DNA of 64,000 nucleotides, taken from the NCBI RefSeq assembly GCF_002210105.1, contig NZ_AQQU01000001.1, positions 842,501 through 906,500 of the forward strand, read 5' to 3'. The position numbers and the translations under genes are program-made. Below the pieces are notes generated by a model, which worked only from the letters and a program-made list of their open reading frames with translations, made no database searches and was not told where the DNA came from. The DNA is from Oceanicola sp. 22II-s10i (GTDB lineage: Bacteria > Pseudomonadota > Alphaproteobacteria > Rhodobacterales > Rhodobacteraceae). Shown here piece by piece: positions 49,529-55,545 of this stretch; within the stretch, counting starts at the first letter, position 1, and the number at the start of each line of letters is the position of its first letter.

Positions 49529-49608
49529 CGGGACCTCCGTTGCGGCTGTTTGCTATATGAAGGCGGCAAGGGAATGATGCAACTGCGCAAGATTTGCCGG
49601 GCGGTGTG

Positions 49609-50490
49609 ATGGCAGATAACGACCGGAGGAAACCTGACAAGGTGCGGAGAATGTCAGCCGTCGAACGCCGCCTGCGTCGCGTCATCGATCATGTCCATGC
49701 CGATCCCGGTCGCGCACATTCGCTGGACGACCTCGCCGACGTGGCCGCGATGAGCCGCTTTCACTGGCACCGCGTCTGGCGTCAGCACATGGGCGAGACG
49801 CAGGCGGTCTGGCTGCGGCGGATCCGTATGCACATGGCTGCCAGCGAACTGGCGCGATCCCGTCCGGACGATTTGGGCGAACTGGCGCGGCGGGTCGGCT
49901 ACCCCGACGTGGACAGCTTTGCCCGCGCCTTTGCCGCGCAATACGGCATGACCCCGCGCCGGTTCCGCGACCGGGGCGGCCCGCTGCCGCTGCTGTCCGA
50001 CATGAGAGGAGAGACCATGGCCTACCCCGTCGAGATCCGCGACATCCCCGTCCGCCGCCTTTTCGGCCTGCCGCACATTGGCGCCTATTACCGGATCGCC
50101 GAAGCCTACGACCGCCTTGGCGCAACCGTCGCCGCGCGCGATCTGACGCAGGTTCTGGGCCCGATGATCGCCATCTTCTACGACGACATCAACACGGTGC
50201 CCGAAGCCGAGCTGACAAGCTTTGCCGCTCTTGTGGCGCAAAATGACATGCCGTTGCCGGAGGGGCTGGAGGAACGACGCCTTCCGCCCGGTCCCGCAGC
50301 CGTGCTGACCTTCCGGGGGCCCTATGCCGACCTGCCGCAGGGCTATGATCACCTGTTCCGCACGTGGTTCCCGGCGTCGGGGCGCGAACCTTCGGGCGAG
50401 GCGCTCTACGAGCTCTACCTCAACACCCCGCTCGATACCGCGCCCGAGGATCTGGTGACCGAAATCCACTTTCCCCTGAAACCCGCGTGA
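49609..50490 (+). CDS. AraC-family regulator with GyrI-like effector domain
   Basis: 293 residues from the ATG at 49609; start at 49651 (MSAVERRLRR), which fits relatives better, is possible. N-terminal AraC DNA-binding domain (about 20-125: DDLADVAAMSRFHWHRVWRQ, ARRVGYPDVDSFARAF) followed by a GyrI/SoxS-like ligand domain (about 140-290: MAYPVEIRDIPVRR, GPYADLPQGYDHLFRTWFP). Such proteins often sense hydrophobic drugs or amphiphiles. No efflux gene adjoins. Confidence 0.9.
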   Translation: MADNDRRKPDKVRRMSAVERRLRRVIDHVHADPGRAHSLDDLADVAAMSRFHWHRVWRQHMGETQAVWLRRIRMHMAASELARSRPDDLGELARRVGYPDVDSFARAFAAQYGMTPRRFRDRGGPLPLLSDMRGETMAYPVEIRDIPVRRLFGLPHIGAYYRIAEAYDRLGATVAARDLTQVLGPMIAIFYDDINTVPEAELTSFAALVAQNDMPLPEGLEERRLPPGPAAVLTFRGPYADLPQGYDHLFRTWFPASGREPSGEALYELYLNTPLDTAPEDLVTEIHFPLKPA

Positions 50491-50521: not shown

Positions 50522-50881
50522 ATGGACCACAGCCCCGGCACCCATCTGCTGATCGACCTCTACGGCGCACGGCACCTGACCGACACCGACCGCCTGCGGA
50601 CCGCCCTGACAGGCGCGGCGCGGGCGGCGGGGGCTACGGTGCTGTCGGATCACTTCCACGGCTTTCCCGACCGGGGAGGCGTCACCGGCGTGGTGCTGCT
50701 GGCCGAGAGTCATATCTCGATCCACACATGGCCCGAGATCGGGTTCGCCGCCGTCGACATCTTCATGTGCGGCCGCACCGACGCCCGCGCGGCGGCGGCG
50801 CATCTGCAGCAGGCACTGGCACCCTCTGACACCCGCGTCACCGAGGTTCAGCGAAACCAGGCGTCCCAGCCCTGGTTGTAA
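50522..50881 (+). CDS. speH: S-adenosylmethionine decarboxylase proenzyme (SpeH)
   Basis: Makes decarboxylated AdoMet, the aminopropyl donor of polyamine synthesis. 119 residues. Self-cleavage motif AESHISIHTWPE, with S63 becoming the pyruvoyl group after cleavage at E62/S63; other family residues HLLIDLYGA and MCGRTDA. Its last 34 nt overlap the 3' end of the aminopropyltransferase gene on the opposite strand. The pair supplies donor and transferase. Confidence 0.93.
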   Translation: MDHSPGTHLLIDLYGARHLTDTDRLRTALTGAARAAGATVLSDHFHGFPDRGGVTGVVLLAESHISIHTWPEIGFAAVDIFMCGRTDARAAAAHLQQALAPSDTRVTEVQRNQASQPWL

Positions 50882-52386
50882 TAGCCGACCAGCGCGTGGT
50901 CGCGGATCGAGTTCACCTCGGCCGCGATCGGCCCCGTGTCCGTCCCGAAGACCTGCGCCGCCGCCCATGTCTCGGGCGTGAGGTACCGGAGACCGTCCGG
51001 AAGGACGGGCGACGTCCCCCTCGGCTGCATCGGCGCGGCGATGACAAAGCCCCAGTCCCCGAAACTCGGGACGTAGACGTGGTAAGGCAGGGTCCACAGC
51101 CCTTCGCCCGGCCGCTGCGGGTTGCGCGTGGCCCCCAGCGTGGTGGCCACCGACCAGAACGCCTGCCGCGCGAACAGCGGCGATCCGGCCTGCGTCACGA
51201 GGATGCCCTGCGCCGACAGCCGGTCGATCAGAACGGCATAGAATTCGAGGCTGTAGAGCTTGGATAGCGCGATGTTCTTCGGATCCGGCAGGTCGACGAT
51301 GATCACGTCGTAACTCTCCCCGCTCTCTTCCGCGAAGCGCCAGGCATCGGTGTTCCGCACCTCCACCCGCGGATCGCCGAAGGCGTTGCCGTTCAGCGCC
51401 GCGAGGTCGGGGTTATCGGTGAACAGCTCGGTCATCCGGGGGTCGAGATCGACAAGTGTCACACGCTCCACATCGTCGTGCTTCAGCACCTCGCGCAGCG
51501 CCATCCCGTCGCCGCCGCCGAGGATCAGCACATGCCTCGCGCGGGGGGCCATCGACAGCGCGGGATGCACCAGCGCCTCGTGGTAACGGTATTCGTCCTG
51601 CGTATCGAACTGGATCGAATGGTCGAGGAACAGCCGCACCCGGTCGCGGAACCGGGTGACGGTGATGTTCTGGTATGGCGTCGCCTCGCTCAGGATCACC
51701 TCGTCCTCGAACAGCTGCGCCTCGGCGACCGAGACCATCCGTTCCGCCTGCGCCAGGCCGATCACCGTCATCACCATCGCCACGCCCCAGACCGCGACGG
51801 ACCCCCAGGCCATCCGCGCCCGGAACAGCCACAGCGACAGGCCCGCGACGCAGAGGTTCAGCAGCCCGAATGCAAGGCTCGCGGACATCAGCCCGAGGTA
51901 GGGAATGACGAGCACCGGGAACGCCAGCGAGGCGGCCAGCGCGCCGAGGTAGTCCGCCGACAGCACGTTTTCGAACCGGAACTCCGGCGCGCCGATTTCC
52001 TTCAGCGCGCGGGCGATCAGCGGGATTTCCATGCCCGACAGCACCCCGACGGCGACCAGCACCAGGAACAGCGGCAGCGCGACCGCGCCGTAGGCCGCGT
52101 ATGTGAAGAACAGGATCGGCGCGAGGAACCCGCCGACGATGCCAAGCGCGATCTGCGCGTGGACGAAGCCCTGCAGCGCATCGCCCACGTAGCGCGACAC
52201 CCAAGCGCCCACCCCCATCGACGACAGGAACACGCCGAGGACAAAGCTGAACTGCCGGACGCTGTCGCCCAGCAGGTAGCTCGACAGGGTCGCCGCGATC
52301 AGCTCGTAGATCAGCCCGGCCACGGCGACGAGGAACGTGGCGACCAGCAGCCACGCCTCGCGCGGGGCGACCCTGAGGTCCGTCAT
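50848..52386 (-). CDS. Polyamine aminopropyltransferase with N-terminal membrane domain
   Basis: 512 residues. Residues 1-210 hold about seven hydrophobic segments; the rest is a spermidine synthase domain: dcAdoMet-binding LILGGGDGMALREVLKHDD (290-294 is GGGDG), acidic residue in TLVDLDPRM, and active-site VIIVDLPDPKN. It transfers aminopropyl groups to a polyamine or other amine at the inner membrane. Last gene of a minus-strand operon with DUF350, a small peptide and two DUF4178 proteins; 1 nt after DUF350. Substrate may differ from free putrescine. Confidence 0.9.
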   Translation of the reverse strand: MTDLRVAPREAWLLVATFLVAVAGLIYELIAATLSSYLLGDSVRQFSFVLGVFLSSMGVGAWVSRYVGDALQGFVHAQIALGIVGGFLAPILFFTYAAYGAVALPLFLVLVAVGVLSGMEIPLIARALKEIGAPEFRFENVLSADYLGALAASLAFPVLVIPYLGLMSASLAFGLLNLCVAGLSLWLFRARMAWGSVAVWGVAMVMTVIGLAQAERMVSVAEAQLFEDEVILSEATPYQNITVTRFRDRVRLFLDHSIQFDTQDEYRYHEALVHPALSMAPRARHVLILGGGDGMALREVLKHDDVERVTLVDLDPRMTELFTDNPDLAALNGNAFGDPRVEVRNTDAWRFAEESGESYDVIIVDLPDPKNIALSKLYSLEFYAVLIDRLSAQGILVTQAGSPLFARQAFWSVATTLGATRNPQRPGEGLWTLPYHVYVPSFGDWGFVIAAPMQPRGTSPVLPDGLRYLTPETWAAAQVFGTDTGPIAAEVNSIRDHALVGYYNQGWDAWFR

Positions 52387-52387
52387 G

Positions 52388-52612
52388 TCAGGACAGGATG
52401 ACGGCGGCGATGATGATGGCGACGGATACGAAGACCGATCCGATCAGCACGGCGAGCGCGATGTTGTTGTCCTGCTCGATCTCCTTGACCACCGGAAAGG
52501 GGGTCACCCAGTCGATCAGCTTCCAGATGATGAACAGCAGCGCCACGCCCACGAAGGTGTAGATGACGGTGCTGACAAGCTCGGCCAGCTTGATGGCGAC
52601 GATTGGTTCCAT
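52388..52612 (-). CDS. DUF350 membrane protein
   Basis: 74 residues, ATG after GGAGA. Two hydrophobic helices (STVIYTFVGVALLFIIWKL; IALAVLIGSVFVSVAIIIAA) around a polar loop with KEIEQDNN, the DUF350 hallmark. Function unknown. In other bacteria DUF350 genes sit with DUF4178/DUF2491 and polyamine or ATP-grasp genes (from memory, E. coli yjfKLMC). Confidence 0.88.
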   Translation of the reverse strand: MEPIVAIKLAELVSTVIYTFVGVALLFIIWKLIDWVTPFPVVKEIEQDNNIALAVLIGSVFVSVAIIIAAVILS

Positions 52613-52633
52613 GCGCTCTCCTGTGTCTCGCGC

Positions 52634-52795
52634 CTATTTCACGCGTCCGTTGATACCGCCGCCGCCCGGACTTCCCAGCCGGACGGAACGGTCGAGGTCG
52701 GTGCTGTCGCGCCAGACCCCGAAATATGACAGATACCCGGCCCCGGCGACGGTCCCGAGGGCTGCGATCAGAAAGACGACGCGGAACAGGTTCAT
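52634..52795 (-). CDS. Small membrane or secreted peptide in the DUF350/DUF4178 operon
   Basis: 53 residues, too short for usual length cut-offs. The ATG at 52795 is 1 nt after the stop of the DUF4178 gene, and DUF350 follows, so it lies in the operon frame order without conflict. Residues 4-25 form a hydrophobic helix or signal peptide (FRVVFLIAALGTVAGAGYL); the rest is polar and ends SPGGGGINGRVK. The position matches a small exported protein in related operons elsewhere. No family recognised. Confidence 0.72.
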   Translation of the reverse strand: MNLFRVVFLIAALGTVAGAGYLSYFGVWRDSTDLDRSVRLGSPGGGGINGRVK

Positions 52796-52796
52796 C

Positions 52797-54098
52797 TCAG
52801 TCGTCGTCCTCGTCTTCTTCGACCCAGTCGCTGCCCTGCCAGCGACGGCGGCGCGACACGAGCCGCCCGCCGACCGTCAGCAGGCCCGGCAGCATCAGCA
52901 GGCCCGCCGCGATCACCAGCCAGAACCCGCTTTTCGCGCCCTCGCTGACGGTGACGCCGACGCGGCTGAGCGGGCTGCCGGAACGCTCCCACGTCTCGGC
53001 CTCGGCCATCGCGATTTCCAGCGTATAGGTGCCGGGTGCGGGCGGGTGGAACCGCACCGTGGCCCAGCGTGACCCCTCGGTCCAGTTGCCGTCGTCATAG
53101 CCCGAGTAATAGCCGATCTCGCGCCCCACCTCGAACACCGGCTGGTCCTCGGGATCGGTCAGGCTGGCCTCCAGCCATGTCCACGAGTTGTCGACATCCG
53201 CATAGAGCTGGATCAGCGCCAGCTTCTCGGTGTCGGTCAGGTCGAAACTCACTTCCGCCGGCAGCTGCGACAGGGCGAATTGCTGCGCCGGTAACACCTC
53301 GCGCCCGTCGTCGAAGCCGAGGATCAGCGCGCCGAACAGGCTGACCACGGCAAAGACCAGCCCGGCCACCAGCAGGAAGGTGTCGTCGGGATAGCGCCAG
53401 ACCGGCTGCACCGCGTGGACATAGGGCGCCTTGGGCCGCGGCTCGGCCCCGAAGGCCGCCAGCGTTTCGGCCTGCGGCAGGTAGTGCGTCAGCTCCACCT
53501 CGCGCTCATTGCCGCTGTCCACGAAATCCAGCATCGCCCCGTCGGCCAGCATCGAAACGGTGGTCGTCCGGTCGCCGATCCGGGGCCGCCAGTTGAACTC
53601 GCCCTCGGCAAAGGTGATCGCGGCGTCCGAGGTTTCGTAGTAGCCGAACCGCACGCCGCGGCTGTTCACGCTCGGCCGCCCCTCGGCCCGCTCGACCTGC
53701 GCCGACGACACCCAGCCGGGCGATACCTCGCCCCGGTATTTCCGGGTGAACACCAGGTGCCCGCTTTCCCATGTCAGCCAGGCGTAGCCATGGGTGGGCG
53801 AGAAGATCTGATGCTCGACCCAGTTCCAGACCTGCCCGTGATACCGTTCCTCCATCCCGAGCGTGCCGATGACGGTATACTCCACGCCCTCGATCTGCCC
53901 GCGCATCCCGATCCGCAGCGGCGAGCCGGGGCGCTGGAGCCCTTCGAACTTGGCCAGCACCTTGTAGTTGTCGACCGCGTCCAGTTCGGCCCCGCAATAG
54001 GAGCAGACATGCGCCAGCACCCGACCGCCGCCATGCACGTCGAGGCCCGCCCCGCAGGAAGTGCAGTTGATCGACTTGATCTCGGCGTCGCGGGTCAC
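52797..54098 (-). CDS. DUF4178 protein with zinc ribbon and membrane segments
   Basis: 433 residues from the GTG at 54098, which overlaps the upstream stop (GTGA). N-terminal zinc ribbon CTSCG...CSYCG (residues about 12-38), then a DUF4178 domain (GMRGQIEGVEYTVIGTL, WNWVEHQIFSPTHGYAWLTW). Two hydrophobic segments in the middle and near the C-terminus (FLLVAGLVFAVVSLFGALIL; FWLVIAAGLLMLPGLLTVGG) frame a soluble, jelly-roll-like portion. Acidic end EEDEDDD. Probably the scaffolding partner of DUF350; role unknown. Confidence 0.85.
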   Translation of the reverse strand: MTRDAEIKSINCTSCGAGLDVHGGGRVLAHVCSYCGAELDAVDNYKVLAKFEGLQRPGSPLRIGMRGQIEGVEYTVIGTLGMEERYHGQVWNWVEHQIFSPTHGYAWLTWESGHLVFTRKYRGEVSPGWVSSAQVERAEGRPSVNSRGVRFGYYETSDAAITFAEGEFNWRPRIGDRTTTVSMLADGAMLDFVDSGNEREVELTHYLPQAETLAAFGAEPRPKAPYVHAVQPVWRYPDDTFLLVAGLVFAVVSLFGALILGFDDGREVLPAQQFALSQLPAEVSFDLTDTEKLALIQLYADVDNSWTWLEASLTDPEDQPVFEVGREIGYYSGYDDGNWTEGSRWATVRFHPPAPGTYTLEIAMAEAETWERSGSPLSRVGVTVSEGAKSGFWLVIAAGLLMLPGLLTVGGRLVSRRRRWQGSDWVEEDEDDD

Positions 54099-54709
54099 GT
54101 TGCGCGTTCCACCCGGATGTCGAAGGGATCGGCCCAGTTGCCGATGAACCACGACCGTCCGCCGGGCCAGAACTCGCCCGACAGCAGCGCGCCATTGGCG
54201 GCTGCGCAGTTCACGAAGTCATAGGTTTCGCCCACCGTAAGCTCTTCGTCGAAGGCCCCGCGCAGGGCGAGGCATTCGGCGCGCTCGGCCTCGGTCACGT
54301 TGAACTTGCGCCCGTCCACGCTGAACTGGGCGCCGAGCGCCGGGGCGCTGGTGGCCTTGGGCCAGTTGGGCTGGGGCAGCGGGGCCTGGATGGCAACGTC
54401 GCCCTCGTCGACCGAGAGCCAGAACAGGCTGCCCGCCTCGTTCACGGCCTGGAATTCGTCCCACCATCCGCGCCCGTAGGAAAATCGCGCATGGCCAAGG
54501 ATGTCATAGTTCTTGCCCCAGACATTCACCCGGTCGCCCAGCCCGAACAGCATCGGCGCGTCGTGCATCACGCCGGCCTGACCGGCCTGCCGCACCGCCT
54601 CGTCCTCGATCAGCAGCGAGGTGCCGCAGGACGGACAGACGACATGCCGGAAGCCCGCCATGCGCGGGTCGATGCGGTCGCCGCAATTGGGGCAGTTGTG
54701 ATCGGCCAT
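54095..54709 (-). CDS. DUF4178 protein with zinc ribbon (soluble)
   Basis: 204 residues. N-terminal zinc ribbon CPNCG...CPSCG (6-32), then a DUF4178-type domain (GLGDRVNVWGKNYDILGHARF, WWDEFQAVNEAGSLFWLSV). No membrane segment. First gene of the operon that ends in the aminopropyltransferase; its stop overlaps the next gene's GTG. Confidence 0.83.
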   Translation of the reverse strand: MADHNCPNCGDRIDPRMAGFRHVVCPSCGTSLLIEDEAVRQAGQAGVMHDAPMLFGLGDRVNVWGKNYDILGHARFSYGRGWWDEFQAVNEAGSLFWLSVDEGDVAIQAPLPQPNWPKATSAPALGAQFSVDGRKFNVTEAERAECLALRGAFDEELTVGETYDFVNCAAANGALLSGEFWPGGRSWFIGNWADPFDIRVERAT

Positions 54710-54805: not shown

Positions 54806-55426
54806 TCAGGCGGCCAGCAGGTCCAGCAGCGACAGTTCGGGCGGCAGACGGCCCCGCATCAGCACCGCCTCGTCCCGCGTCAGGCAGCGACGCGGGGCGC
54901 GGGCGCCGGGGTCGAGCAGGGCGGTCGCCCGCCGGACGGCAGGCGGCAGGTCCAGCGTCCGGGCCGTGTCGGCATCCACGCTGTCGACCCAGAGCGATCC
55001 GGCATTGATGATCTCGTGCCGGGCCATGACGATCAGGTGGTAGGATAGCGGGCCCATGCCGGGGTCTACCCGCGGTTCGGCCCGCCGGGTCAGGTCGCCG
55101 AACCGCGCCAGCACCTCGTCCGTGCCGAAATAGAGCTCGCACTCCGCACGTTTGACCAGCCCGCGCGTCCCCGGCGCGACCCGCAGTTTTTCCATCAGCC
55201 TGCCGCCCGGCCCGTATTCGCCCGGCAGGAAGACGATGGGCGGCGGCAGTGCCCCGCCGTCGGGCATCGTCCGCAGCCGGGCGACATGCAGCACCGGCTG
55301 CGCGCCGTGGTCGCGGGTGATCAGCCGGTCGCCGGGCGCGAGCCATTCGACCGGGATCTCACCCGACGCGGCCAGCAGCATGGTGCCGGGCCCCAGACCC
55401 GTCAGGGGAAAATGACTGTTCAGCAT
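54806..55426 (-). CDS. Hint-domain protein
   Basis: 206 residues from the ATG at 55426 (GGAGG upstream); a GTG at 55450 is unlikely. The segment GPGTMLLAASGEIPVEWLAPGDRLITRDHG matches the opening of a Hint (hedgehog/intein) domain (key parts: GTMLLAASGE, VEWLAPGDRL), with VAPGTRGLVKRAEC later. The nucleophilic Cys or Ser expected before GT is absent (LGPGT), so no self-splicing. Common in Rhodobacterales as large-protein modules; here it is free-standing. Confidence 0.78.
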   Translation of the reverse strand: MLNSHFPLTGLGPGTMLLAASGEIPVEWLAPGDRLITRDHGAQPVLHVARLRTMPDGGALPPPIVFLPGEYGPGGRLMEKLRVAPGTRGLVKRAECELYFGTDEVLARFGDLTRRAEPRVDPGMGPLSYHLIVMARHEIINAGSLWVDSVDADTARTLDLPPAVRRATALLDPGARAPRRCLTRDEAVLMRGRLPPELSLLDLLAA

Positions 55427-55545
55427 GGCGCCGATCCTCCGCGCCTGCACCTTCCGCGATCAGAGTTTCCCGCCGGTTAAGGCAGACACCCCGAAACCCC
55501 GCGCCGCAGCTTGCCACCCACGGGGCCGCCGTGCATTAAGACGTC

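Follow-up and report, generated by a model that had tools for sequence, protein, structure and literature searches.

A conserved C-terminal lysine on membrane partners of membrane-fused aminopropyltransferases, a candidate aminopropyl acceptor in Oceanicola sp. 22II-s10i

The window analyzed here is a 64,000-nucleotide stretch of the Oceanicola sp. 22II-s10i genome (contig NZ_AQQU01000001.1, positions 842,501 to 906,500). It contains an operon encoding a membrane-fused aminopropyltransferase, a 53-residue membrane peptide, a DUF350 protein and two DUF4178 proteins, with speH converging on it. The reading we favor, at about even confidence, is that this operon is an envelope aminopropylation system in which the C-terminal lysine of the peptide would serve as the aminopropyl acceptor. 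The central observation concerns the last residue of the protein encoded with such enzymes. Among 84 loci with a membrane aminopropyltransferase, a membrane-anchored or exported partner was found in 80, and the partner ends in lysine in 80/80. Three points go beyond the sequence-only reading that preceded this analysis: the terminal-lysine rule, the enzyme's probable position outside the cytoplasm and the earlier description of the operon type. That reading had placed six genes as listed here, in families that Pfam and NCBIfam bear out.

50522..50881, plus strand: speH, S-adenosylmethionine (SAM) decarboxylase, 119 residues; AdoMet_dc 1.1e-34, TIGR03330 above cut-off; source of decarboxylated SAM (dcSAM)
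50848..52386, minus strand: membrane aminopropyltransferase, 512 residues, seven transmembrane (TM) helices followed by a spermidine-synthase domain; NF002956 618 bits (cut-off 472)
52388..52612, minus strand: DUF350 protein, 74 residues, two hydrophobic segments (by eye); PF03994 9.1e-13; slot kept in 19/19 loci
52634..52795, minus strand: 53-residue membrane peptide, one hydrophobic segment, tail DLDRSVRLGSPGGGGINGRVK; conserved slot; candidate aminopropyl acceptor
52797..54098, minus strand: DUF4178 protein B, 433 residues, GTG start; PF13785 8.4e-14; AlphaFold2 (AF2) model pLDDT 87
54095..54709, minus strand: DUF4178 protein A, 204 residues, two CxxC pairs, no TM segment by eye; PF13785 4.6e-18

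The sole lysine of the window peptide is its last residue. The 80 partners have 76 distinct tails, and position -1 alone is invariant among the last 12 positions. This residue is carried by proteins of at least five forms: peptides of ~48-66 residues; Gly-rich peptides of ~78-100 residues; a zinc-ribbon DUF4178 protein whose end carries a similar tail, connected by a TM helix (8 loci, L060, L061, L063-L066, L070 and L071); a ~200-residue protein in a second operon type (L102-L105), where DUF350 and DUF4178 were not found; and 16 proteins of ~270-580 residues (L074, L075, L080 and 13 of L179-L196). A lipobox is present in 14/16 of these long partners, the exceptions being L074 and L193. The 53-residue peptide has no lipobox and has its terminal lysine in common with the lipoprotein partners elsewhere. 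In the second operon type, from Rhodobacteraceae, the enzyme is joined by speH and the ~200-residue TM protein, which ends ..SGG..GK; a further protein there, typed only in L104, has rhomboid and acetyltransferase domains.

Partners were selected in two ways. The first set consisted of 65 loci with a partner, which ends in lysine in 65/65. For 52 of these the choice was made by homology, slot, Pfam domain, annotation, open reading frame (ORF) size or hydrophobicity, blind to the last residue, while 13 were chosen with the lysine known (L058, L059, L067, L068, L069, L076, L077, L079, L102, L103, L105, L110 and L111). A selection rule blind to the last residue was also fixed beforehand and applied to 18 fresh enzyme loci without DUF4178, from a draw of 398 Pseudomonadota genomes; the script for this test used an ORF-overlap filter absent from the written rule. 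The rule chose a lysine-ending protein in 13/18. As background, ORFs of at least 200 residues were taken from 44 of the same sources, among them the window, and 13/441 of these end in lysine; the controls from the same operons do so in 0/34 (SpeH), 0/42 (DUF350) and 1/86 (enzyme). No partner ends in arginine (0/80), though arginine is five times commoner than lysine as a background last residue. Among the short partners (48-100 residues), 43/50 have no other lysine.

The enzyme should be an active aminopropyltransferase with an altered acceptor side, because the catalytic residues are kept while a groove tyrosine and the residues after the catalytic aspartate have changed. The AF2 model (pLDDT 81, from 20 close homologues) has seven TM helices, the third of them kinked. 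Foldseek matched the catalytic domain to solved polyamine synthases, best to the Thermus thermophilus polyamine aminopropyltransferase 1uir, and the 25 PDB sequence matches at 1e-10 all belong to the polyamine synthase family. Gln259, Asp264, Tyr268, His269, Asp293, Asp315, Asp365, Asp368 and Gln399 are invariant in 65/65 distinct membrane enzymes. The SpeE-type catalytic Asp pair and the Tyr, His and Gln of the dcSAM site are likewise kept in 65/65, and the GGGDG loop reads GAGDG in 2/65. By a motif mapping made here onto the consulted sections of PMC4356361 and PMC6514230, the invariant set includes the catalytic Asp, the Asp for the far amine of putrescine and the residues that hold the aminopropyl group. 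The acceptor-groove Tyr, identified by its motif match to Tyr264 of Plasmodium SpdS, is Phe in 65/65, and the catalytic Asp is followed by Leu or Phe and then Pro in 65/65, where the control set has Ser-Thr. A loss of the N-terminal hairpin that closes the putrescine groove was considered; lengths are similar to those of soluble enzymes, and the model is poor in that stretch.

The catalytic domain looks extracytoplasmic, at the outer face of the inner membrane, judging by the AF2 model, charge and cysteine counts. Over 20 diverse enzymes, the inner loops carry a mean of 2.1, 2.25, 3.4 and 3.5 Lys+Arg and the outer loops 0.45, 0.65 and 0.8; with seven helices, this positive-inside pattern would place the catalytic domain outside. 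That domain holds 3 Cys in 18,990 residues and is Cys-free in 62/65 proteins, and the membrane part of those 65 proteins holds 185 Cys in 17,281 residues. SpeE-like homologues without a TM part have 31 Cys in 5,091 residues and are Cys-free in 1/20, the control being the matched stretch of 20 among 39 such matches in a 248-genome family draw. In the short partners, positive charge is higher before the helix than after it in 49/50 and equal in one, and by this charge balance the tail of the 53-residue peptide would also lie outside. A related arrangement is described in the consulted part of PMC10349129: a fungal protein resident in the endoplasmic reticulum, built of seven TM helices and a spermidine-synthase-like domain, methylates the N-terminus of exported proteins. 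It shows that an enzyme of this build can work on exported proteins, through a different reaction.

Genes resembling flavin adenine dinucleotide (FAD)-dependent oxidoreductases lie directly downstream of the enzyme gene in L061, L063, L072, L076 and L078. RR/Tat-like starts, which we counted toward the outer side, occur on these neighbors in L061, L063, L072 and L076, and Pfam Amino_oxidase is over its cut-off in L061 and L078 (L063 lay outside that scan). Such neighbors could oxidize an external polyamine product. Upstream of the DUF4178 genes, an SPFH/Band-7-like protein is encoded in L060 (by resemblance), in L078 (by annotation) and in L076, where it matches Pfam Band_7_1 at 3e-74 and has a weak C-terminal zinc ribbon.

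A sister system helps to interpret the lysine. The sequence-only reading had drawn a link to the E. coli yjfKLMC group, and this was confirmed by RefSeq product names: yjfK is DUF2491, yjfL DUF350, yjfM DUF1190 and yjfC 'peptide--spermidine ligase'. YjfC, the E. coli peptide-spermidine ligase, is reportedly the subject of work by Pederick et al. in 2023, to go by its title. DUF1190 (YjfM/YgiB-like) gave 67 matches in 62/398 genomes. The ends were read in the best 30 of the 67 matches (L128-L157), many of them enterobacterial-like and mutually close; a Gly-Gly end was found in 30/30 of these best-scoring loci, likewise in E. coli YjfM, and a YjfC-like gene sits beside DUF1190 in 28/30. The tail of DUF1190 (YjfM) is rich in Gly, Ser and Arg, and the protein is membrane-anchored. 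Its Gly-Gly is likely the ligation end, a feature for which we saw no description. The difference between Gly-Gly and Lys ends means that the end of the partner fits the chemistry of its enzyme, a carboxylate for an ATP-grasp ligase and an amine for an aminopropyltransferase. Genomes with both the membrane aminopropyltransferase (44) and DUF1190 (62) number 0/398 (expected 6.9; one-sided P 3.6e-4, with kinship ignored). No ATP-grasp match was found among the window proteins scanned with Pfam, and no DUF1190 match in the host's own genome.

The window operon itself is well conserved. Scanning genome contigs for the enzyme turned up 20 relatives, of which 19 belong to Rhodobacterales. The nearest relative fetched is from Pseudooceanicola pacificus (enzyme identity 80%), and the host, with a genome of 5.11 Mb and a completeness given as 100, groups with Rhodobacteraceae. 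The order DUF4178-A, DUF4178-B, peptide, DUF350, enzyme is intact in 19/19 other Rhodobacterales loci, and the 53-residue frame occupies the identical slot, between DUF4178 and DUF350, in all 19/19. The ratio of nonsynonymous to synonymous substitution rates (dN/dS) for the peptide is 0.03-0.31 over 10 ungapped pairs, some of which share a sequence. Conserved gene order, a fixed place for the peptide gene and purifying selection on its frame had all been expected from the sequence-only reading, and each held up. Most aligned peptides follow the pattern ES.DLD.S[VI]R.GS.G, then a short Gly-rich end and [VI]K. In the family draw, the peptide profile matches 17/248 genomes, exactly the 17 with the enzyme type of the window; the full-length membrane enzyme (E < 1e-170) occurs in 20/248 genomes as 21 copies, the remaining four copies being of the second type. 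More widely, membrane-fused aminopropyltransferases are common, with the enzyme (E up to 1e-70) in 44/398 Pseudomonadota genomes. DUF4178 occurs in 26 of the 398, and 26/26 of these also have the membrane enzyme (expected 2.9; Fisher 2e-29). Sampling beyond Pseudomonadota consisted of one Gemmatimonadota plasmid (L076); a further search of plasmids added no organisms.

In the mechanism we propose, SpeH would produce dcSAM in the cytoplasm, and the donor would be exported, perhaps through the enzyme's own TM domain or DUF350. The aminopropyltransferase, held by its seven TM helices with the catalytic domain at the outer face of the inner membrane, would move the aminopropyl group, once or repeatedly, onto the side-chain amine of the peptide's C-terminal lysine. 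The lysine side chain would occupy the place of putrescine in the acceptor groove, with the Gly/Ser/Arg-rich tail of the peptide on the same membrane side as the catalytic domain. DUF4178-B could serve to scaffold the complex or to report on it. Physiologically, the product might be a tethered polycation with a sensing or stabilizing function at the membrane, matching the PspA linkage in relatives. Donor export, the reaction and the role are steps that we infer only.

The evidence suggests that the enzyme modifies a lysine at the cell envelope rather than making free polyamine. The earlier idea that the small peptide might be a substrate has gained a specific reason, the invariant terminal lysine. 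The earlier inference that a polyamine is made at the membrane, or attached to something there, is supported in part, and synthesis at the membrane may yet be right. More tentatively, and leaning slightly against it ourselves, we raise a new post-translational modification in which an extracytoplasmic aminopropyltransferase would build a (possibly oligo-)aminopropyl chain on a C-terminal lysine to give an envelope-tethered polyamine. Bacteria would then have two alternatives, building on lysine or ligating spermidine to Gly-Gly (YjfC/DUF1190).

Several points weigh against lysine as the acceptor at the envelope. No modified peptide was seen in this analysis or among the papers found. A catalytic domain on the outside would need dcSAM there, and we know of no exporter for it. 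The predicted side derives from charge and Cys counts together with a model made from 20 close homologues; DUF1190 partners also look like lipoproteins, so that the side alone decides nothing. The loci are related by descent, so their counts are not independent trials, as is also true of the 0/398 co-occurrence; more weight lies on how diverse the partners are. Five of the 18 choices made by the fixed rule do not end in lysine (I, D, H, A or Y), and their tails are poor, with scores of at most 9 as against 15-25. For two of these loci, L182 and L190, a Gly/Ser-rich protein ending in lysine was found only on relaxing the rule to a stop-to-stop reading. A partner was not found nearby in L122, L180, L184 (a 7-kb contig) or L195, and the long partners carry several further lysines. 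A point against the gene cluster as first described, rather than against the acceptor, is that speH was found to adjoin the operon in just 5/19 loci (L016 ends right after the enzyme gene), and it was rejected as a constant neighbor.

Other explanations of the lysine tail were weighed on the same evidence. We consider it unlikely, but by no means negligible, that the tail belongs to an unmodified structural or regulatory partner that binds the enzyme or the membrane, the enzyme aminopropylating some other envelope molecule such as a lipid head group or a polysaccharide amine. A docking motif could explain a tail that is invariant at its end alone, a membrane-embedded enzyme suits a lipid acceptor, and the large predicted external beta-rich domain of DUF4178-B is a possible binding site for such a molecule. 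From a docking motif, however, one would expect an occasional terminal arginine, which no partner has despite the background excess of arginine, and the contrast between Lys and Gly-Gly in the ligase system is left unexplained. That the terminal lysine serves another enzyme, such as a carboxypeptidase, a cross-linking oxidase or a carboxylate ligase, with the aminopropyltransferase merely co-regulated, strikes us as very improbable. The FAD oxidoreductase-like genes that follow the enzyme in five loci (L061, L063, L072, L076 and L078) would fit such a role, but the window operon has no such gene, and the tail tracks the aminopropyltransferase genome by genome, in 17/17 genomes with the peptide.

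The enzyme might instead be an ordinary membrane-sited spermidine synthase that makes free spermidine or a related polyamine, with its neighbors sensing or binding the product. In its favor are the intact set of catalytic residues and the solved relatives found, each of them a polyamine synthase; the host's own genome also has two ornithine/diaminopimelate-fold decarboxylases besides LysA, neither reaching an NCBIfam equivalog cut-off, that could make putrescine. This explanation is nonetheless rather improbable in our view, as the groove Tyr and the residues after the catalytic Asp differ and the terminal lysine of the partner goes unexplained. Fusions of this kind reportedly fail to restore an E. 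coli speE mutant, and their hosts are said to lack spermidine (Li et al. 2019, Biochem J 476:2579). Judged by NCBIfam cut-offs, none of the host genome's three decarboxylase-fold proteins is a carboxynorspermidine decarboxylase. No further spermidine-synthase domain over the Pfam cut-off was found in it, which leaves SpeH without another evident partner. A second spermidine-synthase-like membrane protein lies outside the window (L002, contig C34), with 239 bits to NCBIfam MFS_SpdSyn and a score under the Pfam cut-off.

The genes of the operon are closely packed. From DUF4178-A to the aminopropyltransferase on the minus strand, there is a 4-nt overlap followed by gaps of 1, 21 and 1 nt, and speH, which is convergent with the aminopropyltransferase gene, overlaps it tail to tail by 34 nt (50848-50881). 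The same convergent overlap occurs in L003, L006, L008, L015 and L020. A promoter and terminator scan found nothing. The 53-codon ORF had no family match at E 0.1. Both DUF4178 proteins have CxxC pairs, and their matches to zinc-ribbon profiles are weak and below cut-off. The AF2 model of DUF4178-B has N-terminal, zinc-ribbon-like CxxC pairs, the DUF4178 domain, TM helices at 239-261 and 392-420 and an acidic end. Residues 266-388, between the helices, form a beta-rich domain predicted to be outside, with the Cys pairs and DUF4178 opposite it across the membrane. A structure search with DUF4178-B gave no global match, and the better local ones (~130 residues of beta-sandwich, for example in subtilases, TMq 0.13-0.19) are too weak to use. 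Two neighboring genes were rejected as parts of the system on a check of 19 loci, of which L007 and some others end early on one side. A Hint_2 gene just upstream on the same strand (54806-55450) has a counterpart by the operon in L003 (79% identity) and a weak one in L006, with none found in the other 17 loci, and an AraC/GyrI regulator gene (49594-50490) lies near it in L003 and in none of the remaining loci.

The unvarying lysine at the end of a membrane protein encoded alongside the enzyme singles out one atom as the acceptor candidate. If the proposal is true, it adds a hypusine-like protein modification, carries polyamine chemistry beyond the cytoplasm and gives envelope operons with DUF350, DUF4178 or PspA linkage a chemical meaning.

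The operon type is already in print, without the features of the peptide, and what is new here is the terminal-lysine rule. The consulted sections of Ravi et al. 2024 (mSystems, PMC11237479) describe a PspA/CesT-linked operon with a 7TM-spermidine synthase, DUF350, the Ctha_1186 lipoprotein and DUF4178. It resembles the window operon in its 7TM-fused aminopropyltransferase, DUF350, DUF4178 and a membrane-anchored protein of obscure role, but its DUF350 has 8 TM segments where the window has a single two-segment unit, and the window has two DUF4178 genes with zinc-ribbon-like motifs and, where the lipoprotein would stand, the 53-residue peptide. The main text of PMC11237479 does not contain the term 'C-terminal lysine', and its consulted sections were silent on which side the catalytic domain occupies. 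Neither CesT nor PspA was found among the eight window proteins around the operon scanned with Pfam, the search for PspA being confined to these. A PspA-family protein is present in the relative L056, and a PspA-like one in L075. The clusters of Li et al. 2019 reportedly pair an AdoMet decarboxylase and an MFS-SpdSyn fusion with DUF350; an acceptor other than putrescine is said to be proposed there, with none named. They share with the window the AdoMet decarboxylase, the membrane-fused spermidine-synthase-like enzyme and DUF350. Among the titles and abstract openings listed, where coverage of subscription journals is thin, there was no description of the terminal lysine or of an aminopropylated protein, and a search for aminopropylated proteins by name gave a sole match that concerned another term.

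The fungal N-terminal histidine methyltransferase, in the consulted part of PMC10349129, is like the window enzyme in having seven TM helices and then a spermidine-synthase-like domain and in altering the ends of exported proteins. It differs in moving a methyl group from SAM to an N-terminal His, and its TM region is reported there to be unique to filamentous fungi. The E. coli yjfIJKLMC group shares with the system described here DUF350, polyamine-peptide chemistry, a PspA-family gene and a Gly/Ser-rich, membrane-anchored partner whose end is invariant. It differs in using an ATP-grasp ligase in place of the aminopropyltransferase, and its DUF1190 partner ends in GG rather than K.

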